Origin: Pseudarthrobacter sp. BIM B-2242
Lineage (GTDB): Bacteria > Actinomycetota > Actinomycetes > Actinomycetales > Micrococcaceae
Direction of reading: 5' to 3'
Assembly (NCBI RefSeq): GCF_014764445.1
Contig: NZ_CP061721.1
Span: 3,658,001 to 3,722,000, forward strand
DNA: 64,000 nucleotides
The translations under genes and the position numbers were made by a program. The notes under the pieces are model-generated. The model was not told the origin of the DNA. It saw only the letters and a program-made list of their open reading frames with translations, and did no database searches. Each line of letters starts with the position of its first letter. Position 1 is the stretch's first letter. Below, in pieces: positions 23,960-58,912 of the stretch.

Positions 23960-23980
23960 AATAATTGATCCTTCGAACGG

Positions 23981-44006: not shown

Positions 44007-44037
44007 AGCAGGCTGCCCGGGGCGTAGGATCCTGCCT

Positions 44038-44316
44038 ATGGAATTCGTTGTGCTGTACACCGTGCGTGAGGGCGTCGACCGCCCCCGCCTGTTCGAGACC
44101 TATCCCCGCCACAAGGCCTACTTTGAGGCGTTCCATGCGGCCGGCGGCGGGCTCATCGCACTCGGCCCGTTCCAGACAGCAGATCCGGCGGGCGGGTCGA
44201 TGGGGATCTTTGCCTCGCGCGGGGACGCCGAGCGCTTCATCGCCGACGACCCCTTCGTCACCGAAGGGCTCGCCGATCCACGAATCCTTGAGTGGGATGC
44301 CGTGCGCTTCGAGTAA
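44038..44316 (+). CDS. YciI family protein
   Basis: 92 residues: EFVVLYTVREGVDRPRLFE, HKAYFEAFHAAGGGLIALGPF, FASRGDAERFIADDPFVTEG. This is the YCII-like alpha/beta fold with the conserved His in the loop before the second helix and the Asp in ADDPF, a possible small lyase or hydrolase of unknown substrate. It follows the GH32 gene by 31 bases, though the functional link is unclear. A palindromic element begins 29 bases after its stop. Confidence 0.85.
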   Translation: MEFVVLYTVREGVDRPRLFETYPRHKAYFEAFHAAGGGLIALGPFQTADPAGGSMGIFASRGDAERFIADDPFVTEGLADPRILEWDAVRFE

Positions 44317-44345
44317 CTGCCTCACCCCACTCCGCACCTCACGCT

Positions 44346-44379
44346 GAGCACGGCGGCGGGACCGCCCGCCGTCGTGCTC
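44346..44379. repeat. Palindromic gene-end element, copy E
   Basis: GAGCACGGCGGCGGG (44346-44360) and CCCGCCGTCGTGCTC (44365-44379) pair with a single G-T wobble, loop ACCG. It lies between the convergent YciI and MaoC genes. It is the least perfect of the five copies. Confidence 0.8.
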
Positions 44380-44433
44380 TTACGCGTGGCGCCGCTCCCC
44401 TACAGCGCCCAGGGAAAGGCTCCTGCTGAAGAA

Positions 44434-44871
44434 CTACCCGTCGTTTCCGCAAAGGTCCATCGTGTAGCAGACGGCGGTACCTTCAAGGACAACTGTCCCA
44501 TCGCCACGGACAACCCACGTCCGAAGCTTGGTAATCGGCTTGTCCTCGCGTGCTTCCAAGACTTCCACATGTCCGGTAATGACGTCCCCAGGGCGGACAG
44601 GCGCCTTGAAGTCCCAGTTGACGTTGAGAAAAACGGTTCCTGGACCAGGCAGTTCCTCCGCCACAACGGCATTCAAGATGGCGCTGGTGATTCCGCCCTG
44701 AACCACAATTCCCCCAAATCGGGATGATTTCGCCGCTTCAGGATCATAGTGGAGGGGATTGCGGTCACCGCTGATTTCGGTGAACAAACTGATATCGGTC
44801 TCCGCGACCCTGCGTGACATCTGGGCGGTTTGCCCCACGACGGGACGGGTGCGGGCTTGGATCGGGGTCAT
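44434..44871 (-). CDS. MaoC-like hotdog-fold dehydratase
   Basis: 145 residues. DISLFTEISGDRNPLHYDPEAA carries the Asp/His pair of the (R)-specific enoyl-CoA hydratase active site, followed by FGGIVVQGGITSAIL and VNWDFKAPVRPGDVITG. Such proteins hydrate enoyl-CoA or related thioesters. GAAAGG precedes the ATG. It is transcribed divergently from hxlA across a 244-base gap that holds box 1 of the shared operator, so it may belong to the same regulon; its role in C1 metabolism is not obvious. Confidence 0.85.
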   Translation of the reverse strand: MTPIQARTRPVVGQTAQMSRRVAETDISLFTEISGDRNPLHYDPEAAKSSRFGGIVVQGGITSAILNAVVAEELPGPGTVFLNVNWDFKAPVRPGDVITGHVEVLEAREDKPITKLRTWVVRGDGTVVLEGTAVCYTMDLCGNDG

Positions 44872-44962
44872 AAGTGACCGACCTTTCTTGCGGATAGGCC
44901 CAGTTCAGATTGGGAATGAAGTGTCCCAACAGAATTACGGTGACGCGCCTGCAGGTCAATCC

Positions 44963-45030
44963 GTACTGGCTTCCGTAGCGAAATCCGTGATTACCACGGA
45001 TGCACCAGCCCTGTGATGCATCCCACACTG
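44963..45030. promoter_or_regulatory. Shared promoter box, copy 1 (upstream of hxlA)
   Basis: A 68-base segment that matches 46706-46772 at 57 of 68 aligned positions. Its core is an interrupted palindrome CCGTAG-N15-CCACGG (44973-44999). A CRP-like half-palindrome, TGTGATGCATCCCACA, follows at 45012-45027. The box is 117 bases ahead of the hxlA start and 92 bases from the divergent MaoC gene. Confidence 0.8.
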
Positions 45031-45115
45031 GGTGGGGCGTCCTGCAGACCGCCGGCCACAACCCTCCTCAACAGTTCGATGCCCTCCACCGCATCCCACA
45101 GAAAGAAGAACCATC

Positions 45116-45739
45116 GTGAAGCTCCAAGTTGCTATGGACGTTCTGACCACTGAAGCCGCCCTCGAACTCGCCGGCCAGGTCGCCGAGTTTGTTGACATCA
45201 TCGAGCTGGGCACCCCGCTGATCAAGGCCGAAGGCCTCTCAGTCATCACGGCGATCAAGAACGCCCACCCGGACAAGGTTGTCTTCGCTGACCTCAAGAC
45301 CATGGATGCCGGCGAGCTCGAAGCCGACATCGCGTTCAAGGCCGGCGCTGACCTGGTCACCGTGCTCGGTGCTGCCGATGACTCCACCATCGCCGGTGCC
45401 GTCAAGGCCGCCAAGGCCCACAACAAGGGTGTTGTCGTTGACCTCATCGGCATCGAGGACAAAGTCACCCGTGCCAAGGAAGCCCGTGCCCTGGGCGCGA
45501 AATTCGTTGAGATGCACGCCGGCCTGGACGAGCAGGCAAAGCCCGGCTTCGACCTGAACGGTCTGCTCCGTGCCGGCGCAGAAGCCGATGTTCCGTTCTC
45601 CGTTGCAGGCGGCGTAAAGCTCGCCACCATCGGTGACGTCCAGAAGGCCGGTGCCGATGTCGCCGTCGCCGGCGGTGCCATCTACGGTGCAGCCGACCCG
45701 GCACTGGCAGCCAAGCAGCTCCGCGCGGCCATCAACTAA
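45116..45739 (+). CDS. hxlA: 3-hexulose-6-phosphate synthase (RuMP pathway)
   Basis: 207 residues from a GTG, the normal length. KLQVAMDVLTTEAALELAG, FVDIIELGTPLIKAEGL, VFADLKTMDAGELEAD, EMHAGLDEQA and VPFSVAGGVK are the signature of HPS/RmpA, a D-arabino-hexulose-6-phosphate formaldehyde-lyase in the OMP-decarboxylase superfamily. It condenses formaldehyde with ribulose 5-phosphate, for assimilation or detoxification. The usual partner 6-phospho-3-hexuloisomerase (hxlB) is not adjacent or anywhere in the window. The first gene after promoter box 1; a YaaH-type channel follows. Confidence 0.95.
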   Translation: MKLQVAMDVLTTEAALELAGQVAEFVDIIELGTPLIKAEGLSVITAIKNAHPDKVVFADLKTMDAGELEADIAFKAGADLVTVLGAADDSTIAGAVKAAKAHNKGVVVDLIGIEDKVTRAKEARALGAKFVEMHAGLDEQAKPGFDLNGLLRAGAEADVPFSVAGGVKLATIGDVQKAGADVAVAGGAIYGAADPALAAKQLRAAIN

Positions 45740-45846
45740 CCAGCCGTCCATGGTGGCACCAGTCACCGCCCACGACCCCCTCAGCCTGCACAATCCGACT
45801 TCGTTGAACCTCCCGCCCTCTCTCAAGCCACAGGAGTTCTCCCGCC

Positions 45847-46500
45847 ATGTCCAGCACCTCTGTCATTGAAAGCCCAATCCTCACCGCCACAACACCCACA
45901 GCCCCACCACCTCCACCCACCGGTCCGCTGGCAGGGGCACCCGGCATCGTCGGCATCCCCATGGCTGTTGCCGGAGCATTCGGCCTGGGCCTGGTCAACA
46001 CCGGATTCATACCCGCCAGTGCAGCAGCCGCTGCCTTACCCACGGTGATCGCTGCCTCTGCGGTTGGTCTGCTGCTGACCACGGTCTGGGCCTGCGCGCT
46101 CGGCCAGAACACGTCAGCGGGTATCTTCGTCCTCTTCTTCGGATTTTTTGCCACCTACGGCGCACTGTCACTCGGACTCATCAATGGCTGGTACGGCATT
46201 CCCGCTGACCAGATGGTCAATGCGCAAGCCCTCTGGCTTACCTGCTGGCTGTTCATATTCGTGATGCTCACTTTCGTGACATTACGTCTTCCCTGGAGCT
46301 CCACCCTGATGCTCGTTTTCGTCGATATCGCCCTCGCCCTGCTTCTCATGGGCACCCTGCAGGGCGACGCGGGCATGACCAACCTCGGAGGCTGGTTCAC
46401 GTTCGCCTTCGTTGCAGTGGCCGTTTACCTCTACGTCGACGTCATGTGGAGCCAAACCGGTGGCCGCGGGCTGCCACAAGGACGCCCGCTCGTGCGCTAA
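45847..46500 (+). CDS. GPR1/FUN34/YaaH family membrane channel
   Basis: 217 residues. After a Pro/Thr-rich cytoplasmic start come six hydrophobic helices with the entry motif GAPGIVGIPMAVAGAFGLG in place of NPAPLGL, and LFFGFFATYGALSLGLIN. The family moves small monocarboxylates such as acetate, or ammonia. AGGAG is ten bases ahead of the ATG. It lies 107 bases after hxlA and before a strong terminator, so the two genes form one unit. In a formaldehyde setting, export or uptake of formate/acetate is a reasonable guess. Confidence 0.8.
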   Translation: MSSTSVIESPILTATTPTAPPPPPTGPLAGAPGIVGIPMAVAGAFGLGLVNTGFIPASAAAAALPTVIAASAVGLLLTTVWACALGQNTSAGIFVLFFGFFATYGALSLGLINGWYGIPADQMVNAQALWLTCWLFIFVMLTFVTLRLPWSSTLMLVFVDIALALLLMGTLQGDAGMTNLGGWFTFAFVAVAVYLYVDVMWSQTGGRGLPQGRPLVR

Positions 46501-46539
46501 GCAGTTCAGTCTCGGTATAGCGAGGCACAGCAGCACTGA

Positions 46540-46582
46540 AGACCCCCGGCCGCGCCCCCTGTGGGCCCGCGGCCGGGGGTCT
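46540..46582 (+). terminator. Strong terminator after hxlA unit
   Basis: AGACCCCCGGCCGCG (46540-46554) pairs perfectly with CGCGGCCGGGGGTCT (46568-46582), a 15-bp stem with a 13-base loop, 40 bases after the YaaH-type stop. It separates the hxlA unit from the flavin reductase unit. Confidence 0.85.
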
Positions 46583-46705
46583 GCTGCGCTGCCCCCATCG
46601 AGGCCGGCGGGCACTCACGGGTTGACGTCCTGAGCTCGACGTCGGCTGCATTGCGGCACGCCGCCCTCGCAAAACAAATCCGCTTACGCGTATCCAGGTC
46701 ACTCA

Positions 46706-46772
46706 GTACCGCCTCCCGTGGAGAAATCCGTAATGACCACGGATGCACAGCCCTGTGACGCAATCCACACTG
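46706..46772 (+). promoter_or_regulatory. Shared promoter box, copy 2 (upstream of flavin reductase)
   Basis: This copy has the perfect operator CCGTGG-N15-CCACGG (46716-46742) and the CRP-like TGTGACGCAATCCACA (46754-46769). It aligns with copy 1 over 68 positions with one gap. The operator ends 95 bases before the flavin reductase ATG. Confidence 0.8.
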
Positions 46773-46837
46773 AAAGGGAATTGTTGTAGCGCTAAATGCG
46801 TGGCTCCATCCTTACCAAACCATTGAAAGGAAGAATC

Positions 46838-47335
46838 ATGACTGCACAAATTGCTGACAACGGTGTTCTCCTCCAGGAGGCTCTTACTCATTTTCCTGCC
46901 GGTGTTGTAGCCCTCTCGGCGACGGTAAAGGGTGAGCGGCAGGTTCTCATTGCTTCGTCTTTTTCGGTCGGAATTTCCTATGAACCGCCGCTCGTTCTGT
47001 TCTCCGTTCAAAAATCTTCATCCACGTGGCCGAGCATCAAAGATGCACCTCTCATTGGCGTTTCGGTAATGGGTGAAGACCATAACCCGGTCTGCCGCCA
47101 ACTCGCGTCACGCGATAAATCAAAGCGATTCAACGGCGTAGAGACTTTTTCCGGTGAACAGAATGATCTTTATATTTCCGGATCTCCCCTGTGGCTCACA
47201 TGCTCCATTTACCAGGAGGTCGATGCTGGCGACCACATTCTTATTCTGCTGAAAATTGAGGATTTCCAGGCTCATAGTTTGCACATGCCCCTGGTACTCC
47301 ACCGCTCGGCTTTGGGCCGCTGGGACCGCATTTAG
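46838..47335 (+). CDS. Flavin reductase-like protein (FMN-binding split barrel)
   Basis: 165 residues from an ATG with GAAAGGAAG upstream. LTHFPAGVVALSATV, VLIASSFSVGISYEPPLVLF, then GVSVMGEDHNPVCRQLASR and LTCSIYQEVDAGDHILIL mark the HpaC/DIM6-type flavin reductase domain, which reduces FMN with NAD(P)H and feeds a partner monooxygenase. The LLM monooxygenase at 52064 in the same box-controlled regulon is the obvious client. The codon use is less GC-rich than in neighbouring genes, a possible sign of transfer. First gene of the second unit. Confidence 0.88.
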   Translation: MTAQIADNGVLLQEALTHFPAGVVALSATVKGERQVLIASSFSVGISYEPPLVLFSVQKSSSTWPSIKDAPLIGVSVMGEDHNPVCRQLASRDKSKRFNGVETFSGEQNDLYISGSPLWLTCSIYQEVDAGDHILILLKIEDFQAHSLHMPLVLHRSALGRWDRI

Positions 47336-47350
47336 CGCTCACCGCGACGA

Positions 47351-47959
47351 ATGAGAGGCATGAGAACCGTGATTAGCACCCTTCCGCAGAACGTGAATGT
47401 GATGAACACGCCAACGGTCGCAGATGACCGGGCCCAGGGCCTGGCGCCTGTTGAACAGGTGTCACCGGGGGCCGGCACGTCGAGAGGGAGTGCGGTGCAC
47501 CTGGACATTCTCCTCACGTGGAGGGGCCGGGTGGGGCTCTTCAAAAAGTCCGCGCATGGTTCAACGGGGAGCACCCCGTGGCAGCTTCTCTCCGTCCCCC
47601 GGGCGGGCCATGCATCAGCTTTGGACGACGAATTGCTGCAGTGCATCGACGTGCTTCATGGCGGAACCGGCCTCGCCGTCCGCGACATCCTCACGATTCG
47701 GTGTGGCCCCATGGTCGAGGTCCCTCATGGTTCGCAAAGCACTCAGCACGTGGTCTACATAGTCGAAACCAATCAGCGGCGATTGGCCCTTGGGCCTGAG
47801 TACTCGGTGTACCGCTGGGTCAAAAAACCCAGGATCGGGCGCTTCGATGGTGGCGCTGAGTGGCTGGCGCCCGTTCTGGAAGCAAGCGCTTCAACGCCCG
47901 CAAAGTCGCGGGAATTGATACTCAACACGGCCGGCCGAGGCGCGATATTGGCCGCGTGA
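47351..47959 (+). CDS. Nudix-like protein lacking the catalytic Nudix box
   Basis: 202 residues. HLDILLTWRGRVGLFKKSAH, PWQLLSVPRAGH, QHVVYIVETNQ, LALGPEYSVYRWVKK and AEWLAPVLEAS follow the strand order of a Nudix hydrolase. Where GX5EX7REUXEEXGU should be, the sequence reads LLQCIDVLHGGTGLAVRD, so the catalytic glutamates are gone. A binding or regulatory role is therefore more likely than hydrolysis; this is inference by eye. It sits 15 bases after the flavin reductase and before the MFS gene. Start uncertain (ATG at 47351, 47360 or 47402). Confidence 0.6.
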   Translation: MRGMRTVISTLPQNVNVMNTPTVADDRAQGLAPVEQVSPGAGTSRGSAVHLDILLTWRGRVGLFKKSAHGSTGSTPWQLLSVPRAGHASALDDELLQCIDVLHGGTGLAVRDILTIRCGPMVEVPHGSQSTQHVVYIVETNQRRLALGPEYSVYRWVKKPRIGRFDGGAEWLAPVLEASASTPAKSRELILNTAGRGAILAA

Positions 47960-48024
47960 ACGGTCCAGCCCGTTCCCGCGATGAAACCAGGCGCACCTCC
48001 CCGTCGAATGACTGAAGGATACGA

Positions 48025-49257
48025 ATGGCACTCCAACAAGCAACCTTGCCCGTAGAAGTTCGAGGGCGCACCAGATCTATTCGCCTCATCCTGCTTTGTC
48101 AGGTCCTGACCTTGGCCGTCTGGTTTGCCTCGACTGCTGCGTTGCCGAGCATCGCGGTTCTCGAACCCATTTCCGAGACCCAAATGGCACTGATGACCAG
48201 CGTGCTGCAGGTGGGGTTCGTTGTCGGTGCCCTGCTCAGTGCTTTTCTCAATGTGGCAGACAGATTCGACCCCCGAAACCTTTTTGCAGCGTCGGCGGCG
48301 GTGGCAGCCGTGACTACCGCGGCCCTGCTTGTGGTCTCGCCCGTAGGAACCGAAGCGCTCATTCTCAGGGCCCTCACCGGAGTGGCCCTGGCAGGAATTT
48401 ACCCCGTGGGTATGCGCATGGTGGCCAGTTGGGCCACCAATGATCTGGGGAAACTTGTCGGCTTGCTGGTCGGAGCACTGACAATAGGCTCTGCCCTGCC
48501 TCATCTCTTCACCATCGGTGCCGCCTGGGACTGGAAACTCGTCTATGCAGCTTCGTCGATTGCCGCCCTCTCGGCAGCGTGCCTGGTCAAATTCGTGAAG
48601 CTCGGACCTGCGTTCAAGCGGGCGCAACGTTTCGATCCAAGCACTATCAAAGCTGCCTGGCTCAAACGGCCGGTCCGCTTGGCCAACCTGGGATACCTGG
48701 GCCATATGTGGGAACTGTACGCAATGTGGGCATGGATCGGGTTGTTTTTCCGGGCATCACTGGACGCCCGGGGAGTTGAACAACCGGGCCTCGCCCCCGC
48801 AGCCACCTTCCTTGTCATTGCCGCAGGCGCCCTGGGTGCGCTGATCGGAGGACGTTTGGCCGACCGATTTGGCCGCACCGCTGTAACCATCTATTCCATG
48901 GCAATCAGTGGTGCCTGCGCGCTGACTGTCGGCTGGCTCTTTGGCGGGCCACCTCTGCTGATTCTCATAGTGGCCATGGTTTGGGGAGTATCAATCATTG
49001 CGGACTCTGCTCAATTCTCAGCGTGCGTCGTGGAACTGTCACCCCCCGAGTCGGTGGGCACCATGCTGACCATACAAATCTGCATGGGCTTCGCACTAAC
49101 CCTCGTCACAATCCAGTCCATGGGATTTGTCGTCAATCATCTGGGTTGGGGAATCGGGTTCTCGATGCTCGCGCTGGGTCCGCTTTTTGGCTGCCTGGCC
49201 ATGTGGTTGCTTCGACGTGACCCGGCATCGTCCCTGCTTGCGGGCGGGCGCAAATAA
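48025..49257 (+). CDS. MFS transporter of the C1/flavin island
   Basis: 410 residues with about twelve membrane segments. Motif A is GGRLADRFGRTAVTIY between helices 8 and 9; helix 1 reads LILLCQVLTLAVWFASTAAL. AAGGA precedes the ATG. The proteins of this subgroup often import small organic compounds or efflux toxic ones. Its place inside the unit that also carries flavin reductase and pgi makes it the best candidate for substrate uptake in the proposed demethylation pathway. Confidence 0.85.
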   Translation: MALQQATLPVEVRGRTRSIRLILLCQVLTLAVWFASTAALPSIAVLEPISETQMALMTSVLQVGFVVGALLSAFLNVADRFDPRNLFAASAAVAAVTTAALLVVSPVGTEALILRALTGVALAGIYPVGMRMVASWATNDLGKLVGLLVGALTIGSALPHLFTIGAAWDWKLVYAASSIAALSAACLVKFVKLGPAFKRAQRFDPSTIKAAWLKRPVRLANLGYLGHMWELYAMWAWIGLFFRASLDARGVEQPGLAPAATFLVIAAGALGALIGGRLADRFGRTAVTIYSMAISGACALTVGWLFGGPPLLILIVAMVWGVSIIADSAQFSACVVELSPPESVGTMLTIQICMGFALTLVTIQSMGFVVNHLGWGIGFSMLALGPLFGCLAMWLLRRDPASSLLAGGRK

Positions 49258-49338
49258 CACTCTGTTCGATCTGAACCTTCATTCCGCCCTCAACGAAGCG
49301 AGGTGGGAGACCAATCTGCCAGGAAGGGAATTCACATA

Positions 49339-49554
49339 ATGCGCAGTCAAGCCACCAAACATTTGGAAATCATTGTCACCGAGCCCGGTCGTCTATACGA
49401 GCTACTTAACAGTGCCGAGGCCGCGCTCCGGCAGACGGCCGTTACCCACCGCCAGTCCGGAATCCTCGTGACCCGCCACCATCCTGGCCGATACACGCTC
49501 ACGCTCAGCAACAAAGTTCCTTTCGGGGAGACCCGCGAGCAGATCCTCTCGTGA
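49339..49554 (+). CDS. Small hypothetical protein in the C1/flavin island
   Basis: 71 residues, KHLEIIVTEPGRLYELLNSA and HPGRYTLTLSNKVPFGETREQ, probably a small alpha/beta domain. An AGGAAGGG site lies ten bases before the ATG, which favours it over the upstream GTG at 49303. No family recognised. It lies between the MFS and pgi genes and should be co-expressed with them. Confidence 0.65.
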   Translation: MRSQATKHLEIIVTEPGRLYELLNSAEAALRQTAVTHRQSGILVTRHHPGRYTLTLSNKVPFGETREQILS

Positions 49555-49656
49555 CTGCCAGGCAATCGCTGCACTGACCATCGACATTAAAGGCAACAGT
49601 GCTGCCAGGACTTCCTCGCTGGTCTGCGGCCTCACCAGATATCTAGGAGAAACACC

Positions 49657-51351
49657 ATGACCACCCAGGCGCAGCAACTCCCGGATGGCGGAAGCGCCAT
49701 CTGTCTTGATCGCCGCTCCCGGGGCCCGGGCTACGACGCCACCGGTGCCGCGCAGCAGGCACTTGAGCAGCATCTGCCCACTCTTGTGGCGGACCGGATT
49801 GCGACCCGGATCTTCGCGAAGGACCATACCCTGTGGGGTCCGGAGGCCGAGGCCGAGTCTGCTGTCCGCCTGGGCTGGGTCGAGGCGGCTACCGTCTCGC
49901 AGGCCCTGGTGCCCGGGATCCTTGAGCTCCGTGATGCCCTGCACGCCGACGGCGTGTCCCGCATCGTGCTTTGTGGCATGGGCGGATCCTCGCTGGCTCC
50001 CGAGGTTATCGCCGGTACCGCTGGCGTCGAGCTGACTGTGCTGGACAGCACGGATCCCGATCAGGTCCGTGCCGCCCTCGCGGACCGGCTGGCCGAGACC
50101 GCGATTGTGGTCTCGTCCAAGTCCGGATCCACCCTGGAAACTGATTCGCAGCGCAGGATTTTCGAGCACGCCTTCACCGCGGCCGGGATCGACGCGAAGA
50201 GCCGGATCATCATCGTCACCGACCCCGGCTCCCCGCTGGATAAGGCCTCCCGCGAGGCCGGCTACCGGGCCGTGTTCAATGCGGATCCCAACGTCGGCGG
50301 CCGGTACTCGGCCCTGACCGCGTTCGGGCTGGTCCCTTCGGGCCTGGCCGGCGTGGATATCCAGGCGTTCCTGGACGAGGCCGAGGAAGCCGCCGAGATC
50401 CTCAACGAGGATGCTCCGGACAACATCGGTCTGGCCCTGGGCGCGGCCCTGGGCGGAACCAGCCCGCTGCGGGACAAGATCGTCATTGCCGAGGACGGGT
50501 CCGGGATTGTGGGTTTCGCCGACTGGGCCGAACAGCTCATCGCCGAATCCACCGGAAAGTCCGGCACCGGGGTCCTGCCGGTCGTGGCCGGCCCGGCGGC
50601 GCCCGAGGTCAGCTCCGGTGCCGCTGATGTGCTGGTGGTGCGGCTGGTTGCTGCTGATGCCGACGTCGAACTCGGTGAGAACGAGGCGGCCATCGCCGGC
50701 GGGCTCGCCACCCAGATGATGGTGTGGGAATTCGCCACGGCCGTCGCCGGCCGGCTGCTGGGGATCAACCCGTTCGACCAGCCGGATGTGGAGGCAGCGA
50801 AGGTCGCCGCCCGCGGCCTGCTGGACGCCCAGCCCGAACCCACACTGGCCGCCTTTGTGGACGGCGCCATCGAGGTCCGCGGCGGTGACTGGCTCCGCGG
50901 TGCCCACACGGCCGAGGAAGCCGTCGGTGCCCTCCTGGGAACACTGGACGACGAGAGCTACCTCAGTGTCCAGGCATACTTCGACCGCCTGGCTTTCGCC
51001 GAGCTGGAAGGCATCCGGGACCAGCTCGCCGCCACCAGCGGCCGCCCGGTCACCTTTGGCTGGGGACCGCGGTTCCTGCACTCCACCGGGCAGTTCCACA
51101 AGGGCGGCCCCGCGATCGGCGTGTTCCTCCAGGTCACCGCGGCACCCGCCGAGGATCTGGCCATCCCGGAACGTCCCTTCACCTTCAGGGAACTGATCTC
51201 CGCGCAGGCCGCCGGGGACGCCCAGGTCCTGGCCGGTCACGGCCGCCCGGTCCTGCGCCTGCACCTCACCGACCGCACCGCCGGCGTTGCACAGCTGCAG
51301 GAGATCATCGCCGCTGTCGCCGCCCAGTCCGCATCCCTCACCGACAGCTAA
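49657..51351 (+). CDS. pgi: Glucose-6-phosphate isomerase
   Basis: 564 residues. LCGMGGSSLAPEV, VVSSKSGSTLETDSQRR, DPNVGGRYSALTAFGLVPSG and GPRFLHSTGQFHKGGP cover both SIS domains and the active-site loops of the PGI group found with transaldolase in actinobacteria. It interconverts glucose 6-phosphate and fructose 6-phosphate. As a member of an hxlA-linked cluster it would close a dissimilatory RuMP cycle through the oxidative pentose phosphate route. It is presumably an extra copy, since housekeeping pgi usually lies beside tal/zwf. AGGAGA precedes the ATG; a strong terminator follows. Confidence 0.93.
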   Translation: MTTQAQQLPDGGSAICLDRRSRGPGYDATGAAQQALEQHLPTLVADRIATRIFAKDHTLWGPEAEAESAVRLGWVEAATVSQALVPGILELRDALHADGVSRIVLCGMGGSSLAPEVIAGTAGVELTVLDSTDPDQVRAALADRLAETAIVVSSKSGSTLETDSQRRIFEHAFTAAGIDAKSRIIIVTDPGSPLDKASREAGYRAVFNADPNVGGRYSALTAFGLVPSGLAGVDIQAFLDEAEEAAEILNEDAPDNIGLALGAALGGTSPLRDKIVIAEDGSGIVGFADWAEQLIAESTGKSGTGVLPVVAGPAAPEVSSGAADVLVVRLVAADADVELGENEAAIAGGLATQMMVWEFATAVAGRLLGINPFDQPDVEAAKVAARGLLDAQPEPTLAAFVDGAIEVRGGDWLRGAHTAEEAVGALLGTLDDESYLSVQAYFDRLAFAELEGIRDQLAATSGRPVTFGWGPRFLHSTGQFHKGGPAIGVFLQVTAAPAEDLAIPERPFTFRELISAQAAGDAQVLAGHGRPVLRLHLTDRTAGVAQLQEIIAAVAAQSASLTDS

Positions 51352-51367
51352 ACCCGCCAGGAATGGC

Positions 51368-51399
51368 ACGGGGCGCCCGCCGCACAGCGGGCGCCCCGT
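51368..51399 (+). terminator. Strong terminator after pgi
   Basis: ACGGGGCGCCCGC (51368-51380) and its complement (51387-51399) form a perfect 13-bp stem with a six-base loop, followed by TCTCGT. It ends the flavin reductase-to-pgi unit. Confidence 0.85.
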
Positions 51400-51591
51400 T
51401 CTCGTGCAGCCCGTCCGAGGGCTGTTCTGCCCGCGCGGCCGCCGGCGGGCTCCTCGATCTTCTGCAGGGGCACAGGACACTGCACGAAAGGACATCCCCA
51501 AATCTTGTCCAGCGGGGTTCTGTCAGGCTGCCGTCCACCAATCACGCTGCATCAGCCGGGCACGGCACGGCGGCAACTCCGCAAGATGTCG

Positions 51592-51631
51592 GTACGGATA
51601 CCCGTGGTGAATTCAGTGTTGAGCACGGATG
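51592..51631 (+). promoter_or_regulatory. Shared promoter box, copy 3 (upstream of ABM/LLM unit)
   Basis: CCGTGG-N15-GCACGG (51602-51628) matches the operator of copies 1 and 2 with the same 15-base spacing, and GTAC precedes it and ATG follows as in the other copies. The CRP-like part is absent. The operator ends 77 bases before the ABM start. The rest of the gap 51400-51705 shows no gene. Confidence 0.7.
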
Positions 51632-51705
51632 TAGGGCAGCACCCGCTGAACATAAGTTGGGCAGTGATCGGCATCACAGTGACGTCGAAGATGATGGAGG
51701 AAGTT

Positions 51706-52002
51706 ATGTCGAGCTCTGTTGGCTTACTGGTGATGCTTGAGGCGAAACCCGGCAAAGAGTCCGAACTGTCCGAATTCCTGAAGTCCGCTCAGGACCTCGT
51801 TGTTGAGGAACCCGGCACGTCCACCTGGTATGCCTTCCGGATCAATGCCAGCCAGTTCGGAATTTATGACACCTTTCCGCATGAGGAAGGCCGTCAGGCG
51901 CACCTGGCCGGCAAGGTCGCCACAGCCCTTGGAGCGAGGGCGGATGAGCTTCTCGCCTCCGCACCTTCTCTTCAGCCCGTGGAGGTCCTGGCCTTTACCT
52001 AA
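51706..52002 (+). CDS. ABM-domain protein (putative quinol monooxygenase type)
   Basis: 98 residues from an ATG with GGAGGAAG upstream. GLLVMLEAKPGKESELSEFL, EEPGTSTWYAFRIN, FGIYDTFPHEEGRQAHLAG form the dimeric ferredoxin-like ABM fold. Members oxygenate quinols or polyketides without cofactor, degrade haem, or only bind ligands. It is 61 bases ahead of the LLM monooxygenase and under promoter box 3, so it probably acts on the substrate or product of that enzyme. Confidence 0.85.
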   Translation: MSSSVGLLVMLEAKPGKESELSEFLKSAQDLVVEEPGTSTWYAFRINASQFGIYDTFPHEEGRQAHLAGKVATALGARADELLASAPSLQPVEVLAFT

Positions 52003-52063
52003 ATCGTTGGCTCCCGAAACCGTTCCTTATCTACATACCCCTAAACCGTAAAAGGATATAGAC

Positions 52064-53470
52064 ATGGCAAATAAGCAGAACCCCCAGAAGCGCATGATTC
52101 TGAACGCATTCGACATGAACTGCGTGGGGCATCAGAACCCCGGGATGTGGACGCACCCCGACGACCAGACCCACCGCTATATGGACGTGGACTACTGGAC
52201 CGACCTGGCGAAGCTCCTTGAACGCGGCGGGTTTGACTGCCTCTTTATTGCAGACGTCCTGGGCTACTACGACGTTTATGGCGGATCACGGGACACTGCA
52301 CTTCGCACCGCCGCCCAGGCACCTGTGGGAGACCCTGCGATCCCGATCTCAGCAATGGCAGCTGTGACGGAGAGGCTCGGGTTCGGGGTTACGAAGTCAC
52401 TGACTTACGAACTTCCCTATTCTTTCGCCAAGACAATGACCACCTTGGACCACATCACAAAGGGCCGGGTCGCCTGGAATATCGTGACGTCGTACCAGGC
52501 AAGCGCAGCAGAGAACCTGGGGCTCGACAAGCAGATCCCGCATGACGAGCGTTACGCGGTGGCGGACGAGTTCATGGAGGTCTGCTACAAGCTTTGGGAA
52601 GGTTCATGGGACGAAGACGCAGTGGTCTTCGACAAAGAAAAGCGCATCTTCACGGATCCGTCCAAAGTCCATGACATCAACCACGAGGGTAAGTATTACA
52701 AGGTTCCCGGCGCCCACCTCGGTCAGCCGAGTCCGCAGCGTACTCCGTTCCTGTTCCAGGCCGGCACGTCCAAAAAGGGTATGGAGTTCTCGGGGAAGCA
52801 CGCCGAGGCCGTGTTCGTCATCGGCACAAGCCCCGAAGAGCTGCGGCCAACCGTCGACAAGGTCCGCCAGCAGGCGGCCGAGGCAGGCCGGGACCCGCGC
52901 AGCGTAAAGGTCATCGTGATGCTGACCCCCATCACGGCACCGACGGACGAGGAAGCCCAGGCCAAGCTTGAGGACTTCTACAAGTACGCAGATACTGACG
53001 CCGCACTGACCCTCTTCGGCGGATGGACAGGCATTGATATGTCTTCGGCGCCGGCGGACCAGCCCTTGGAGAGCATCGAGAGTGACGCTATCCGGGCCAT
53101 GATCGACATGCTGACCGGCGTGGACAGCGAGGTTGTCTGGACAAAAGAGCGGCTGGCGAAATGGCTGTGCATTGGCGGATTTAGCGCGTCAGTGGTCGGT
53201 TCGCCCACAACCATCGTCGACGAGATGGAGCGATGGATGGAGATCGCGGATGTTGACGGATTCAACCTTGGCCGCGTCATTGCACCCGGGACGATGGAGG
53301 ACTTCGTCGAGCTGGTGGTACCAGAACTGCGCAAGCGGGGCCATGTCCCGCAGGACCCCGCCGCTGAGGGAGTGATGACGTTGCGTGAACGTCTCACAGG
53401 CGACGCCCGGCTCCCCTCAGAGCACGCCGGCGCCAACTACCGGCTGGGTGTGGCGGCGTCAGTCTCCTGA
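52064..53470 (+). CDS. NtaA/DmoA-type FMN-dependent monooxygenase (LLM class)
   Basis: 468 residues of the bacterial luciferase-like TIM-barrel. MILNAFDMNCVGHQNPGMW, FDCLFIADVLGYYDVYGGS, AKTMTTLDHITKGRVAWNI, HDERYAVADEFMEVCYKLW and GGWTGIDMSS follow the NtaA/SnaA/DszA/DmoA family. From memory the order and wording look closest to dimethyl sulfide monooxygenase DmoA, which gives methanethiol and formaldehyde, but the family also acts on nitrilotriacetate, EDTA and other substrates. It uses FMNH2 from a separate reductase. AAAGGA precedes the ATG. The last 30 residues are a non-conserved tail. Confidence 0.88.
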   Translation: MANKQNPQKRMILNAFDMNCVGHQNPGMWTHPDDQTHRYMDVDYWTDLAKLLERGGFDCLFIADVLGYYDVYGGSRDTALRTAAQAPVGDPAIPISAMAAVTERLGFGVTKSLTYELPYSFAKTMTTLDHITKGRVAWNIVTSYQASAAENLGLDKQIPHDERYAVADEFMEVCYKLWEGSWDEDAVVFDKEKRIFTDPSKVHDINHEGKYYKVPGAHLGQPSPQRTPFLFQAGTSKKGMEFSGKHAEAVFVIGTSPEELRPTVDKVRQQAAEAGRDPRSVKVIVMLTPITAPTDEEAQAKLEDFYKYADTDAALTLFGGWTGIDMSSAPADQPLESIESDAIRAMIDMLTGVDSEVVWTKERLAKWLCIGGFSASVVGSPTTIVDEMERWMEIADVDGFNLGRVIAPGTMEDFVELVVPELRKRGHVPQDPAAEGVMTLRERLTGDARLPSEHAGANYRLGVAASVS

Positions 53471-53509
53471 TGAGGTCACCTGAACTGCGCCGCTGAAAAG
53501 GATGAGAAC

Positions 53510-53541
53510 GGCGGCCTCCGATTTGCGGGTCGGCGGCCGCC
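53510..53541 (+). terminator. Weak hairpin after the LLM gene
   Basis: GGCGGCC (53510-53516) pairs with GGCCGCC (53535-53541) across an 18-base loop, followed by ATTCCTT. Possible terminator of the ABM/LLM unit, weaker than the two before it. Confidence 0.4.
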
Positions 53542-53654
53542 ATTCCTTCCCTGAATTCAGGGTTCAACGACGCGGTTCGCGGATTCTAGCGCAGCCGGAA
53601 CGTTCACGCCGTGGACAGGCCGGGTGTTCCTGGTCACCTGTAGGTAAAGTATTG

Positions 53655-53665
53655 CGATCAGATCG
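53655..53665 (+). promoter_or_regulatory. Palindrome upstream of the LuxR-type regulator gene
   Basis: CGATC-A-GATCG is a perfect 11-bp palindrome 83 bases before the regulator's ATG in a 278-base gap. It could be an operator; there is no second copy near the other units. Confidence 0.3.
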
Positions 53666-53748
53666 AACTACGCGAGGGCCGGTCGAAGGAGACCGGCTGA
53701 TCGTGAAGTTGCACTGCCACACTTTGGGGTTCAGAGAGGAATCCGTAA

Positions 53749-56700
53749 ATGCCGGTAGATTTTAAGCAACCAAAGCCTCAGTCGTGTGTAGACCGGGGCA
53801 TCACCTCCCGGGAGTGGGAGGTCCTCCAAGCCGTTCTTAATCATCTGGCCAACGCCGAGATCGCAGCCACGTTGGGGATCAGCGTGCGAACGGTCGAAAG
53901 CCATGTCTCCAACCTTCTGACGAAGTTTGACGTCACGTCCCGTTCAGGGTTGTTAGCTGCCGTCCGGGCCACTGAGAATGCCGGACCGTTACGACTCGAG
54001 GCTCCCCCTTCACTGCTTCGCATGGCGAAGGCAGGTGAATTTGTCGGCCGGCTTCCGGAACTCCAACAACTGCACGATGAGTGGGACTTGGCCAAAGCGG
54101 GTGCACAGCGACTCGTGCTGGTCTCGGGCGATGCTGGCATCGGAAAGAGCCGGCTGGTGGCAGAGTTCGTGCGGCAACTGTTGGTCAATGACGACCCGCT
54201 CGTGCTGCATGGACGTTGCGACGAAGACGTGGCAGGTCCTTTTGAAGCAGTCGGCCACGCCCTTGCCCCGTATATCCGTGCAAGCAATCCCGCCAGTTTG
54301 GCGGGAGAGCTTGGTGACGTAGCCGCCGAACTGGAGACGATCATTCCAATTTCCGGCATCCGTTTACCGGGGATCCCGGTTGATGCCGTGCGCACCGACC
54401 CGAACGTTACCCGGCTGCGACTCTTCGACGCCGTCACTCGCGTCCTCCGCCATGCCTCGGTTTCCTCACCCATGCTGTTGGTACTCGATGACCTGCACTG
54501 GGCTCCCGGGCCTACGCTCCTGCTGCTTAAGCACCTGATGCAGGAGGAATCGCTTAAGCGCACAATGATTATCTGCACTCTTCGCCCCGGGGACGTTTCA
54601 GATGCCCTTATCGACTTCCTGGGTAGGTTGCGCCGGGACGCAATGCCCGTTCAGATTCAATTGGGCGGATTGCACCGGCTCGAGGTCGCTCAACTGCTGG
54701 CTTCCGATGACGGATCGGCACAGTCACGCGATGACACTTTCTCTGAAAGCCTGGCCTATGACATCTACTCGGAAACACGGGGAAATCCGCTGTACGCCGG
54801 AGAGCTGATCCGAAGCCTGGGAGAAGGCAGCGGACCGAAATCGGCGGGCAATGCAGACGTTCCTCACGGAGTGAAGGACATCGTTACTGCACGTGTTCGG
54901 CGGCTCAAACAAGAGACTCAGACCCTGCTCGGCATAGCCGCCGTACTGGGGCAGGAATTTGACCTCAGCGTGCTGCAGCAACTTGCTGAAGTTGACGATT
55001 TCACTCTTCTGGAAGGAGTGGAGGAGGCAACCCAGGCGCAGCTTCTGTATGACGTGACAGCCGCTTCTCCCGACGCCGTTGAACGCTATGAATTTGTGCA
55101 CGCCATCGTGCGTCGGGCAATCATTGAAAGCCTGTCGCCGGCCCGCGTGCGTCGAATACATGCTGCAGCCGGCACAGCGTTGGAGCAGCTTTTTCCTCAA
55201 GCCTTGGAAATGCGGGCCGATGAAATTGCCTGGCATTTGGTTCAGGCAGGACAAATCAAAGACCGCCGGAATATTGTCCGCTATCTGACCATGGCGGGCC
55301 GGGCCGCGCTGAACAGTTCCGCGGCGGAAGAGGGGCTTCGCTTTCTGGACCAGGCTTTGGAATACATCGATGCGGCTGAGGCCTTTGACCGCGCCGAACT
55401 TTGGTTCCAGCGTGGCCTGACGTTGCGAACACTTGGCCGCTGGCCCGATTCTGTGGCCTCGTTACGCAACGCGCTGGACCTTTATGCAGAAGTGGGAGAC
55501 CTGGAAGCCATTTCCCGCACGTGCCGCGCAGCCACACACACGATGTTTTGGTTTTTCCGGATGCCCGAAGCCCTCGATTTAGCTGCTTATGGACTAAAGA
55601 TGCTTGACGGTCACGAGGGCGCAGAACGGGGAAGGCTGCTGGGCGCGTTGTCTTTTGCCCAGGCCTGGAGCGGTGATTACGGCTCAAGCATGAAGGCTAT
55701 CGACGAAGAGTTGGCCATTGCTTCCCGGCTCAAGGATACGGATCTGAAAGGACATGCCTTGGCCATACGCGCGATGCAGCTCCCCGCGTTCCTTGAGCAT
55801 AAAGATGCAGCCTCGGCAGGTTATGAGGCGCTTGAGATACTCCGCGGCTCCGACGATGTCTGGACCTTGACGAGCATGCTCGGCTTTTTGAACTACACGC
55901 TTGTTGGTTTGGGTCGCCTGGAGGCAGCCCGTGAGGTAGGCGCTGAACTGGCCCCACTCGCGGTTCGGGTAGGGAACTACGCCGCCCAACAGCAGCACAC
56001 CCGGATGAACGCCATGGTCGAATTCTTTGAGCAGGGAAGCCCTGTCGCCCTGGAGAAATTCGCCCGGAAGGACCTCGCATTCTGCAAGGCCGTCGGGCTT
56101 GCAACGCCTGAGCATTCGCTCGCATGGCTTGGGTTGGCCAAATTCCTCGCCGGCGAATGGGAGGAAGCAAGGGGTGCTTACTCAGCCGCGCTCGAAACAG
56201 AGGCGGACACGGGAATGGTCGGCTGGGGATGGTCTTCCCTGTTCGAGTTGCTCGCGTACATGGGCGATTCCCAAGCTGCCATGGGTTTGCTTGAAAAGCA
56301 CCGAAACACTCTGCCGCACCTGGACCGGGCCAACACCTGTGGCTCATGGGTGGCGGCGCTAACGGCGGTTGAAGGTTTAGTCGTATTGGGAGAGTTGGAG
56401 CAGGCCGCCGCACTGCTCCCTGCTATCGAACAATGCATTCAGCGGACGGGGGTCGTTTGTATCGAATTCCGGGGTGGGCGCCTAGTCAAGCGTTCAGCGG
56501 CAATTGCCGCTGCAGCGGCCGGCGACTGGGCGCGCGCGGAAAAGTACTTTCGGGAGGCACGTCGTGATGCCGAGACCATGCCCCACGTCGTGGAGCGTGC
56601 CCACACCCTGAGATTTCACGGGAGAATGCTGCTTCAGACTGGCGAAGCAGCATCCTCTGCCCGGGCAAAGTCGTATCTGCAGGAGGCGCGCGCTGTCTAC

Positions 56701-56835
56701 GCGAAACTCGGCATGCCCCGTCACGTGGAACTCTGCGATCTGGAGACGAAACCGACCCGGGTTACGAGCAAAAGGTCTACAACCCCTGACCCCGGCCTCT
56801 TCGGCTTTCTCACCAACCTGATGTATGGGGAGTAA
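53749..56835 (+). CDS. Large ATPase regulator with N-terminal LuxR HTH (inverted LAL layout)
   Basis: 1028 residues. A LuxR-type HTH lies at residues about 16-75 (ITSREWEVLQAVLNHLANAE, IAATLGISVRTVESHVSNLL). An AAA/NB-ATPase domain follows: GEFVGRLPELQQL, Walker A GDAGIGKS (127-134), Walker B region MLLVLDDLHWAPG. The C-terminal 500 residues are helical repeats resembling TPRs. Classical LAL (MalT-like) regulators have the HTH at the C-terminus; here it is at the N-terminus. AGAGGAA precedes the ATG. The gene follows the LLM unit and is the best candidate to bind the shared operator boxes. Codon use is less GC-rich than in the flanking operons. Confidence 0.88.
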   Translation: MPVDFKQPKPQSCVDRGITSREWEVLQAVLNHLANAEIAATLGISVRTVESHVSNLLTKFDVTSRSGLLAAVRATENAGPLRLEAPPSLLRMAKAGEFVGRLPELQQLHDEWDLAKAGAQRLVLVSGDAGIGKSRLVAEFVRQLLVNDDPLVLHGRCDEDVAGPFEAVGHALAPYIRASNPASLAGELGDVAAELETIIPISGIRLPGIPVDAVRTDPNVTRLRLFDAVTRVLRHASVSSPMLLVLDDLHWAPGPTLLLLKHLMQEESLKRTMIICTLRPGDVSDALIDFLGRLRRDAMPVQIQLGGLHRLEVAQLLASDDGSAQSRDDTFSESLAYDIYSETRGNPLYAGELIRSLGEGSGPKSAGNADVPHGVKDIVTARVRRLKQETQTLLGIAAVLGQEFDLSVLQQLAEVDDFTLLEGVEEATQAQLLYDVTAASPDAVERYEFVHAIVRRAIIESLSPARVRRIHAAAGTALEQLFPQALEMRADEIAWHLVQAGQIKDRRNIVRYLTMAGRAALNSSAAEEGLRFLDQALEYIDAAEAFDRAELWFQRGLTLRTLGRWPDSVASLRNALDLYAEVGDLEAISRTCRAATHTMFWFFRMPEALDLAAYGLKMLDGHEGAERGRLLGALSFAQAWSGDYGSSMKAIDEELAIASRLKDTDLKGHALAIRAMQLPAFLEHKDAASAGYEALEILRGSDDVWTLTSMLGFLNYTLVGLGRLEAAREVGAELAPLAVRVGNYAAQQQHTRMNAMVEFFEQGSPVALEKFARKDLAFCKAVGLATPEHSLAWLGLAKFLAGEWEEARGAYSAALETEADTGMVGWGWSSLFELLAYMGDSQAAMGLLEKHRNTLPHLDRANTCGSWVAALTAVEGLVVLGELEQAAALLPAIEQCIQRTGVVCIEFRGGRLVKRSAAIAAAAAGDWARAEKYFREARRDAETMPHVVERAHTLRFHGRMLLQTGEAASSARAKSYLQEARAVYAKLGMPRHVELCDLETKPTRVTSKRSTTPDPGLFGFLTNLMYGE

Positions 56836-56934
56836 CTGCGAGCCTTCCCAAGGCTGTTCTTCATCCCTTACATAAAAACTTAGTCATTTGCCCGAAGTTT
56901 GAAGTGAAATAACCCGACTGAATGGACTGCTGCT

Positions 56935-57495
56935 GTGCGTACATTGGAGTTTCCAAAGCAACGGAACCACAATTATTTCCAGATCACTGGGGTGGTTGGT
57001 CATGGCGACCAACGGGGACGCCTGATGGGCTTTCCCACAGCCAATATTGCTATTCCACCAAATGGCGGCCGCAACGGCGTATGGGCCGGCACGGTTCACC
57101 TCGATTCACCCGATCGCCGCGCCCTTCATGTGGCTGCCATATCCATCGGCGACCGGCCCACGTACTACTCCCGGGGCCAGAGTCTCCTGGAGGCGAACCT
57201 CTTGGACTTCACGGGCGATCTGTACGGGCAGACCGTCGTGGTGACGCTTCGCCTCCTCATCCGGCCCCAACGCAAGTTCTCAGGCACGTCCGAACTCGTG
57301 GACCAGATCCAGGACGACGTAGCCCGGGTTCGAAGCTGGGCTCGGCAAGCAGGCTTTGGGGGCTGCCTCCGGGCAGAACAGGAACCCACCCGCTCGCATT
57401 CCAACCCCCTGGCTACCGTTCACCCCATCGCCCTCGGCCACAGGCTCCCCGATCGAGGCGCTTCGCTGTCCGAATTTCTACCGCTGCACAGCTAG
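56935..57495 (+). CDS. Stand-alone riboflavin kinase
   Basis: 186 residues from a GTG. GVVGHGDQRGRLMGFPTANI is the nucleotide/riboflavin-binding signature of the RibF C-terminal kinase domain, followed by VAAISIGDRPTYY, LEANLLDFTGDLYGQ and VTLRLLIRPQRKFSG. The FAD synthetase half of RibF is absent, so the product would be FMN only. The last 40 residues (after SWARQAGF) do not look like the family and may be a degraded or shifted end. It lies 100 bases after the regulator and would supply FMN to the reductase/monooxygenase pair. Confidence 0.8.
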   Translation: MRTLEFPKQRNHNYFQITGVVGHGDQRGRLMGFPTANIAIPPNGGRNGVWAGTVHLDSPDRRALHVAAISIGDRPTYYSRGQSLLEANLLDFTGDLYGQTVVVTLRLLIRPQRKFSGTSELVDQIQDDVARVRSWARQAGFGGCLRAEQEPTRSHSNPLATVHPIALGHRLPDRGASLSEFLPLHS

Positions 57496-57556
57496 GGGTG
57501 CCTGCTACAGGCCTACCCCACCGTCGGATCTCCCGGCCGGTCCGAAGCCTGAGCGC

Positions 57557-57904
57557 CTAGCCGTTGACAGCTCCGGCCAGCCCGGCCTGGATCTTGTCCA
57601 TGGTCTCGTTGTAGGCAGCGGTCATGTCGATGCCCAGGCGATCCGCCAGGACGAAAATCCACCAGAGCGAGTCGGAAAGCTTGTGCTCAAGCTCCGCGGT
57701 GGCGTCCCCTTCAATCTGCCAGGTGCCTTCGCGTGCCAGCAGCAGCCGCCCGATGTAGCCGACGTCGTTCGTGAAACCCAGCATCAGCTCGTGGTCCGAC
57801 CAGACCCTGCCGTTCAGCCGCTGTTCAAGAACTTCGTACAGCGCACGCACCTCAAGGGCACGGTCGCGGGCATCGGCGAGTTCTGCATGCTTGGGGGAAG
57901 TCAT
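57557..57904 (-). CDS. MazG-like protein
   Basis: 115 residues, all helical, ALEVRALYEVLEQRLNG, HELMLGFTNDVGYIGRLLLA, AELEHKLSDSLWWIFVLAD. The Glu/Asp spacing in ELEHKLSDSLWW matches the EExxE...ExxD type metal site of MazG/dUTPase-fold pyrophosphohydrolases in reduced form. Probable housekeeping of non-canonical nucleotides. The ATG at 57904 has AAGGAA upstream. The C-terminus converges on the riboflavin kinase gene, with no shared role visible. Confidence 0.75.
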   Translation of the reverse strand: MTSPKHAELADARDRALEVRALYEVLEQRLNGRVWSDHELMLGFTNDVGYIGRLLLAREGTWQIEGDATAELEHKLSDSLWWIFVLADRLGIDMTAAYNETMDKIQAGLAGAVNG

Positions 57905-57973
57905 CGGTTCCTTCTTTCTATGGGTTACCACTGGAACACGGGCCAATCCCGAATTATTCGCTGTGCCGTGAAC

Positions 57974-58912
57974 CTAGAGGTAGTCGCCGGCCCGTTCGCG
58001 GGCGATTTCGAGCAGCGTGGAGTGAAAGGCCACCTCCGCCGGGGCGTACACCTTGTCCTGGCGCTGGGCCAGCAGGATGCGGCGCAGCGGGGCAGCGTCG
58101 CCGAGGCTGAGCACACGGACGTCCGGGTGCTGTAGGGCGACGGCGGTTTTGGGCACCATGGCCACTCCCATGCCGACGCTGACCATGGCCTGCGCTTCCT
58201 GGTAATCGTTGGCGAGGAAACCGATGGTTGGTTCGAACCCGGCGTCGTGGGCGGAGCGCTGGAGCACCTCCACCACGGGGTGGGCCTCCGCGCGCACAAT
58301 CCACGATTCGCCGCGCAGGTCCTCCATGCTCACCTGCTCCCGGCCGGCGAGCGGGTGGCTGCCGGCCACCAGGATCACCGTGCTCTCCTGGAAGACTTCG
58401 GTAACCCGGATGGAGTCGTCATGGAACCTGTTCCAGGGATAGTCCCACAGCAGGCACAGGCCGGTGATCCCTGACTGCAGGTCCGCCACCAGTTCATCAA
58501 AGCGCGCACTGCGCAGCGAGAGGCTGATGGCCGGGTACCGCTTCTTGAAGGCGCGGATGACGACCGGCAGGAAGGACCCTGCCAGCGTAGGAAAAGTGCC
58601 CACGGTCAGGGCGCCCCGCTTGAGGCCGGCGATCTGGTCCAGGTCAGACTGGGCAGCCCGCATCTGCCGGATGATCTGGCGCGCATGGCCGGCCAGCACC
58701 TGCCCGGCCTCGGTGGGCACCACACCGCGGGAGCGGCGGTTGAGCAGGGGCTGTCCCACCTCCTGCTCGAGCTTGCGCAGTTGCTGGGAGACAGCAGAGG
58801 GCGAGTACATCATCAGATCGGCCGCAGCGGTGATCGATCCCTGCTCCACCACCTCCAGCAGCAGCGCCAGGCGCCGCATATCGAAAAGATGCTGCTCGTC
58901 ATCGTGAAGCAT
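57974..58912 (-). CDS. LysR family regulator, divergent from prpF-like gene
   Basis: 312 residues. HTH in LALLLEVVEQGSITAAADLM, YSPSAVSQQLRKLEQEVG; effector domain from LTVGTFPTLAGSFLP to the end. The gene is transcribed away from a PrpF-like and a MatC-like gene across a 240-base gap with two inverted repeats, the standard setting of a LysR activator. It should sense the substrate or product of that pair, probably a tricarboxylic or dicarboxylic acid. Confidence 0.9.
   Translation of the reverse strand: MLHDDEQHLFDMRRLALLLEVVEQGSITAAADLMMYSPSAVSQQLRKLEQEVGQPLLNRRSRGVVPTEAGQVLAGHARQIIRQMRAAQSDLDQIAGLKRGALTVGTFPTLAGSFLPVVIRAFKKRYPAISLSLRSARFDELVADLQSGITGLCLLWDYPWNRFHDDSIRVTEVFQESTVILVAGSHPLAGREQVSMEDLRGESWIVRAEAHPVVEVLQRSAHDAGFEPTIGFLANDYQEAQAMVSVGMGVAMVPKTAVALQHPDVRVLSLGDAAPLRRILLAQRQDKVYAPAEVAFHSTLLEIARERAGDYL

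Follow-up and report, generated by a model that had tools for sequence, protein, structure and literature searches.

A probable oxidative demethylation regulon with a common operator-like site links an LLM monooxygenase to ribulose monophosphate genes in Pseudarthrobacter

A stretch of 64,000 nucleotides from Pseudarthrobacter sp. BIM B-2242 (contig NZ_CP061721.1, positions 3,658,001 to 3,722,000; here called the window, and numbered from its first letter) contains at 44434-57495 an island of genes that probably forms the centre of an inducible regulon by which a small methylated compound is oxidatively demethylated. The genome comprises 4.78 Mb in two contigs. The evidence is at the level of sequence and consists of the gene identities, a common operator-like site, a linkage kept between species and the near-identity of ribulose monophosphate (RuMP) genes in the island and in the host genome. 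The parts of the island are of known kinds, the gene set is real and the common operator is well supported. A sequence-only reading had coupled a flavin mononucleotide (FMN)-dependent monooxygenase to formaldehyde capture by the RuMP pathway; this coupling is strengthened by the operator that stands before hxlA, before the flavin reductase operon and before the monooxygenase genes, and in relatives also before hxlB, pgi and zwf-opcA, while the release of formaldehyde and its source compound are what we infer. No description of the gene combination or its operator was found in a literature search that mostly did not extend to subscription papers.

Three operator-like sites are present on the forward strand of the island: 44973-45001, 5' of hxlA-yaaH; 46716-46744, 5' of the flavin reductase-u202-MFS operon; and 51602-51630, 5' of the genes for an ABM-like small protein and the LLM monooxygenase (ABM-LLM). 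Sequence comparison brought out about 80 bp that are alike 5' of hxlA and of the flavin reductase gene and a shorter stretch 5' of ABM-LLM, and likewise in relatives. The site is 29 bp long, with the core CCGTNNNNAAWTCMGTNNTNNNNACGGAT and the inverted repeat ATCCGT/ACGGAT. With up to two mismatches allowed it occurs three times in the own genome, each time within the island. Six genomes with the cluster were compared, namely the own genome, P. sulfonivorans ALL, A. terricola JH1-1, Arthrobacter sp. MA-N2, A. hankyongi I2-34 and Arthrobacter sp. 35W, and together they gave 25 sites at the same stringency and none for a reversed control pattern. In addition to the three in the island, 20 are found in the clusters of relatives or on the same contigs at most 20 kb from the LLM gene, one is on a third contig of P. 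sulfonivorans ALL, adjoining a second regulator copy, and one with two mismatches is located elsewhere in A. terricola (G395:C48). A matrix built from 21 sites of the relatives scored the window sites at 42.6-50.7 bits; the next score in the window was 10.8, and 20 mononucleotide shuffles reached at most 13.3. Among 395 sampled genomes of the family, searched with at most one mismatch, the site was found in all four with an LLM orthologue (threshold E 1e-200; 15 sites) and in one of the 391 without (G238, one site), the control giving none.

Leaving aside the stray site of A. terricola, the first genes 3' of the other 24 sites are ABM-LLM or LLM (six), flavin reductase (six), hxlA or hxlB (four), a small conserved protein (four) and, once each, pgi, yaaH, a small open reading frame (ORF) followed by zwf-opcA, and an AmiS/UreI-type channel. 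In Arthrobacter sp. 35W a broken small ORF intervenes between the site and the hxl gene. Sites thus precede LLM (or ABM-LLM) and flavin reductase in all six cluster genomes, and at least one RuMP gene lies 3' of a site in each of the six: hxlA or hxlB in four, pgi in one and the small ORF-zwf-opcA group in one. Because sites in different genomes share ancestry, the strength of the operator evidence is in the several different operons per genome and in the near-exclusivity. The candidate binder is the neighbouring large regulator (53749-56835, forward strand), which has a LuxR-type helix-turn-helix (HTH) near the N-terminus, at residues 19-68, followed by an AAA_16 ATPase domain; matches to TPR were no better than the cut-off.

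The small conserved protein, of about 43-53 amino acids (MTREEAYA..DSYVEFYGGQW...), stands 3' of an operator site in four relatives (L143:2735-2893, L140:16397-16534, L019:7982-7845 and L018:3808-3680). A broken copy is present in L021 and the window has no match. To our knowledge the protein is undescribed; no search aimed at it was made. The second regulator copy of P. sulfonivorans ALL (L143:1-2136) is 79% identical at the DNA level, is cut at the contig start and has an operator site nearby.

The cluster is kept in the relatives. A close-orthologue scan of named genomes, in which 80 of 110 confirmed loci were retained, gave five close LLM orthologues, 84-95% identical, in strains ALL, JH1-1, MA-N2, I2-34 and 35W. 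The regulator adjoins the LLM gene in all six clusters, and the MFS gene is likewise present in six of six. Riboflavin kinase, flavin reductase, u202 and MFS genes are found in the cluster of all four relatives with long contigs. In P. sulfonivorans ALL (L017, L142, L144) the flavin reductase, u202 and MFS genes are on a second contig, the contig ends stop short of the kinase, and the two contigs were treated as one cluster divided by a gap. The order of genes within the cluster varies between species. Since the linkage is kept in five other genomes despite rearranged order, adjacency by chance is very unlikely.

The RuMP genes of the island have close counterparts in the host genome. hxlA (45116-45739, forward strand), encoding 3-hexulose-6-phosphate synthase (HPS; TIGR03128, 250.7 bits, equivalog cut-off 200), is 96.3% identical in DNA over 650 bp (window 45098-45746) to the host hxlA (C1:3857713). 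The gene for glucose-6-phosphate isomerase (PGI; 49657-51351, forward strand; PF00342, and the C-terminal part of PRK09533) is 97.8% identical over 1622 bp (49730-51351, through the stop codon) to the host pgi (C1:2009642). In both cases the likeness stops at or near the coding ends and the upstream DNA is unrelated. Over its first 25 residues the island PGI is unlike the host copy and instead aligns with the PGI from the P. sulfonivorans ALL cluster, whose body is only 86% identical. Such a mosaic speaks for fresh copying no more than for gene conversion, in which the host gene would have overwritten an older island gene. Four genomes carry hxlA both in the cluster and in a second copy, and the two are 96.6, 99.7, 99.5 and 99.8% identical, the identity between genomes being at most 95.0%. 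Either repeated uptake of host copies or gene conversion that keeps the pairs alike would give this pattern. A. hankyongi has a single hxlA about 21 kb from LLM, and A. terricola has two, 91.7% identical and neither on the cluster contig. In the cluster of Arthrobacter sp. MA-N2 (L019) there are three matches to hxlB, two full hxlA genes and broken pieces of pgi and zwf, which signals repeated duplication.

Within the island the RuMP cycle is represented by hxlA and pgi only. No hxlB, zwf or opcA was found in 44000-58000 among the ORFs scanned or as a DNA match to the host copies. The host operon hxlB-hxlA-small ORF-zwf-opcA-ADH, ADH being an alcohol dehydrogenase gene, is located about 155 kb from the island; a second pgi is in a host pgi-zwf-opcA group, and zwf-opcA is present twice in the own genome with 98.8% DNA identity (L097, L147). 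The genome as a whole carries two hxlA, one hxlB, two pgi and two zwf-opcA, so that HPS, 6-phospho-3-hexuloisomerase (PHI), PGI and glucose-6-phosphate dehydrogenase (G6PDH) are all encoded. These enzymes could serve the proposed burning of formaldehyde through a dissimilatory RuMP cycle, but the island set is incomplete, hxlB and zwf-opcA would have to act from other parts of the genome, and a mycothiol-dependent formaldehyde dehydrogenase offers a second route. The ADH of the host hxl operon exceeds the cut-off for such a dehydrogenase.

The sequence of events would be as follows. The LuxR-type ATPase regulator may switch on the three promoters through the common site with its palindromic core. 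Riboflavin kinase and flavin reductase would, by the function of their families, provide reduced FMN (FMNH2), with which the LLM protein, aided by the ABM-like partner, could oxidise a methyl group so that formaldehyde leaves. From pathway knowledge, HxlA would join formaldehyde to ribulose 5-phosphate, HxlB encoded by the host operon would yield fructose 6-phosphate, and PGI and G6PDH/OpcA would oxidise this product, giving NAD(P)H able to pay for the flavin reductase. HPS uses formaldehyde, and LLM is the sole oxygenase recognised among the regulon genes scanned. It is thus the sole evident source of formaldehyde among them, and oxidative demethylation is the economical reading.

Several observations weigh against demethylation as the function. 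The link between regulator and operator is drawn from their adjacency, and the host hxlBA-zwf operon has no operator site. In the own genome hxlB and zwf-opcA are encoded outside the island, and no enzyme acting on a demethylated product was recognised. The wider LLM family has enzymes that give no formaldehyde, such as LadA and riboflavin lyase. The ABM-like protein is not strictly needed, as its gene, kept in the other cluster genomes, is a remnant in A. terricola, and the MFS protein in the 35W cluster shares only 38% identity. A mycothiol-dependent formaldehyde dehydrogenase is above the cut-off in all six cluster genomes, for which reason RuMP need not be the sole formaldehyde sink. Finally, hxlA is widespread in the family (found in 110 of 395 genomes at E 1e-55, all four LLM genomes included). 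This last point, together with the LadA-level similarity of LLM, would suit a LadA-like hydroxylase with merely adjacent RuMP copies for general formaldehyde detoxification. That explanation is improbable given the near-exclusive common operator, kept across six rearranged clusters.

The LLM gene (52064-53470, forward strand) belongs to the NtaA/DmoA family (TIGR03860, 524 bits, cut-off 279.7), as do three further loci of the own genome that exceed the cut-off. Another LLM paralogue of the own genome (L098:3516-9383) has as neighbours a pair of flavin-reductase-like ORFs, a protein like amine oxidases and an aldehyde dehydrogenase. The orthologue is rare, being found in four of the 395 family genomes. 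Among 1348 plasmid records with a relative, none goes above 60% identity. The nearest solved structure is DmoA (6ak1, 553 bits); LadA scores 479, riboflavin lyase (5w48) 318 and the YtnJ (MoxC/CmoJ) branch 218. In a tree built from 39 of the 86 rows collected, the protein lies in a clade of 13 rows (support 100/100) made up of the Arthrobacter set and homologues of 63-67% identity; DmoA and LadA fall outside this clade, where their branching order was not resolved, and the window protein is not a member of a DmoA clade in the tree.

The co-location of LLM, riboflavin kinase and flavin reductase resembles the Rca cluster, and riboflavin lyase (RcaE) is related to LLM, so that breakdown of flavin was considered. 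RcaE is not the closest relative. LLM is nearer to DmoA and LadA, the residues of the DmoA pocket agree at 7 of 20 positions in RcaE as against 16 of 20 in the window protein, and hxlA, hxlB, pgi and zwf-opcA would be left unexplained in such a regulon. With the lyase scoring far below DmoA and the RuMP genes unaccounted for, riboflavin catabolism was dropped as highly improbable.

Within the demethylation reading, two kinds of substrate were weighed. Dimethyl sulfide (DMS) arising from dimethyl sulfone or dimethyl sulfoxide (DMSO) would be converted by LLM, as the DMS monooxygenase of sulfone-growing Arthrobacter, to methanethiol and formaldehyde, the latter entering RuMP. DmoA is the best match among solved structures, and the cluster occurs in P. 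sulfonivorans ALL; this is the type strain of a species described in a paper whose title reportedly begins "Enzymes of dimethylsulfone metabolism". Several results speak against this choice. The identity to DmoA is 52.3%, the same as that between LadA and DmoA (52%), and 16 of the 20 DmoA binding residues are shared, but most of the 45-53% homologues compared likewise share 16-18, so that the pocket does not discriminate. DmoA is outside the LLM clade, the methanethiol oxidase SBP56 was found in none of the six cluster genomes, and a transporter plus a channel would be odd for a volatile substrate. The dimethylsulfone monooxygenase SfnG is above the cut-off in four of the six, outside the cluster, so that dimethyl sulfone may be handled elsewhere. 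A sulfur substrate, as first suggested, is therefore plausible and unsupported, and DMS itself is rather doubtful. According to PMC9259527, DMS degradation has been observed in Arthrobacter and a comprehensive gene study is lacking. PMC8234197 mentions in general terms that methyl groups from dimethyl sulfone or methanesulfonate pass through serine and RuMP routes, and cites Borodina 2000 on Hyphomicrobium and Arthrobacter.

The other choice is a small polar compound with an N-methyl or O-methyl group, similar to an amide, urea or amine, which the MFS protein and the channel would import and LLM would demethylate. The MFS gene is in every cluster, with the low identity in one noted above, and the regulon has a channel for small solutes, YaaH/SatP-like in five genomes and of AmiS/UreI type, directly 3' of the operator, in A. 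hankyongi. Channels of both kinds fit a small polar solute, and the LLM family includes the oxidative N-dealkylases NtaA and EmoA. No gene for an amidase, an amine dehydrogenase or another part of nitrogen metabolism was recognised in the scan of regulon genes, and acetate or formate may be what the YaaH-like protein carries. An N- or O-methyl substrate is a tentative proposal, about as probable as DMS. The neighbourhoods of the 63-67% homologues (30 neighbour and LLM proteins, from five of nine loci plus L037, among others scanned) have no common substrate theme. In Panacagrimonas the neighbours include a sulfite-oxidase-like, a GFA-domain and an acyl-CoA-dehydrogenase-like protein; we take the last to be DszC-like.

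These homologues, from Rhodococcus and Rhodococcoides, Methylobacterium, Pseudomonas, Paracidovorax and Panacagrimonas, carry an ABM-like domain fused to the C-terminus of LLM in all nine listed (L022-L029, L037). Several loci of the sister clade have an additional ABM-like ORF immediately 5' of the fused gene. In the window the ABM-like protein is encoded separately (51706-52002, forward strand). The ABM gene named in the sequence-only reading is present but its label is weak, the ORF having no Pfam match at 0.001. A nine-row profile matches PDB 2pd1, named 'hypothetical protein', at E 4e-29, and LsrG at E 0.5-0.8, ranked after designed repeat proteins.

An extension of the demethylation reading is a regulon that pays for itself. 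The LLM-ABM pair would be a demethylase of a new substrate class, its formaldehyde would be burned by co-regulated HPS, PHI, PGI and G6PDH, and the NAD(P)H returned would drive the flavin reductase, with host RuMP genes, copied or converted, repeatedly refreshing the cluster under its private operator. We regard this fuller version as less probable than not.

The remaining genes of the island are on the forward strand, with one exception. A MaoC-like hotdog protein (44434-44871, reverse strand; PF01575 E 5.5e-22) is divergent from hxlA, and its gene adjoins the operator of hxl or yaaH in five of the six cluster genomes (among the relatives L018, L019, L021 and L142), not in A. hankyongi. The YaaH/SatP-like membrane channel (45847-46500) has six predicted helices; the acetate-type channel foreseen from the letters is upheld by the match to PF01184, which is weak at 53 bits, as is the match to SatP in PDB. 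In a comparison of its predicted structure (mean pLDDT 55) SatP ranked top, with no match at E 0.001. Flavin reductase, the likely supplier of FMNH2 (46838-47335; PF01613 E 4e-26; PDB 3pft, 4ywn), starts at the ATG at 46838 preceded by AGGAAG; a longer ORF begins at 46796. It is followed by the conserved protein u202 (47351-47959), which has no Pfam match. The alignment and a structural model too weak to rely on (mean pLDDT 43.5) hint at a Nudix-like order of strands and helices without the REXXEE catalytic box, and the protein could be a flavin or nucleotide sensor. The MFS transporter (48025-49257; PF07690) is separated from PGI by an ORF of 71 amino acids (49339-49554), whose homologue in the host hxlBA-zwf-opcA operon lies between hxlA and zwf. 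ORFs of this kind, 71-101 amino acids long, travel with hxlA/zwf and with the cluster MFS gene; the form at L097:9253-9558 has no Pfam match. A monofunctional riboflavin kinase with the kinase domain only (56935-57495; PF01687 E 1.2e-30) ends the island. All genes named in the sequence-only reading are present, those other than the ABM gene with matches in Pfam or NCBIfam scans; it had passed over the operator sites, the 71-amino-acid ORF, u202 and the divergent MaoC-like gene.

The GC content at third codon positions is 0.84 for PGI, 0.77 for hxlA, 0.66 for MFS, 0.64 for the regulator and 0.54 for flavin reductase, which agrees with a mixed origin of the island. An Rfam search gave no matches at gathering scores, and a scan for promoters and terminators gave no higher count than shuffled sequences. 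Elsewhere in the window, at 20359-24571 on the reverse strand, there are four mutually related ORFs that may encode TerD-type stress proteins.

As a candidate for the degradation of DMS or a similar methyl compound in Arthrobacter, the regulon is concrete, small and open to test, and the operator offers a reporter read-out for discovery of the substrate. The near-identical hxlA pairs within genomes illustrate clearly how a catabolic cluster stays aligned with the core-metabolism genes of the host that carries it.

Among known systems, the regulator is like the LuxR-family ATPases of LAL/MalT type in combining a LuxR HTH with an AAA_16 ATPase. These usually have the HTH at the C-terminus, whereas that of the island protein is N-terminal. 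The ytm/cmo operon of Bacillus subtilis likewise has an LLM monooxygenase (YtnJ) with its own riboflavin kinase (RibR), but YtnJ is of another LLM branch and the operon serves sulfur salvage without RuMP genes. The RcaE cluster shares LLM, riboflavin kinase and flavin reductase with the island; its LLM is distant and the island has RuMP genes. The island resembles a dissimilatory RuMP cycle (HPS, PHI, PGI and G6PDH) in that one operator serves hxlA and, in the relatives, hxlB, pgi or zwf-opcA as well. It differs in that the island itself has no more of the cycle than hxlA and pgi, both nearly identical to host genes, while the other steps act in trans. DmoAB of Hyphomicrobium sulfonivorans is also a two-component FMNH2-dependent LLM system; according to PMC13352529, the DmoA reaction yields formaldehyde and H. 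sulfonivorans assimilates through the serine cycle. In contrast to DmoAB, the island has an LLM of 52% identity in a separate clade and adds an ABM partner, a riboflavin kinase and RuMP genes.

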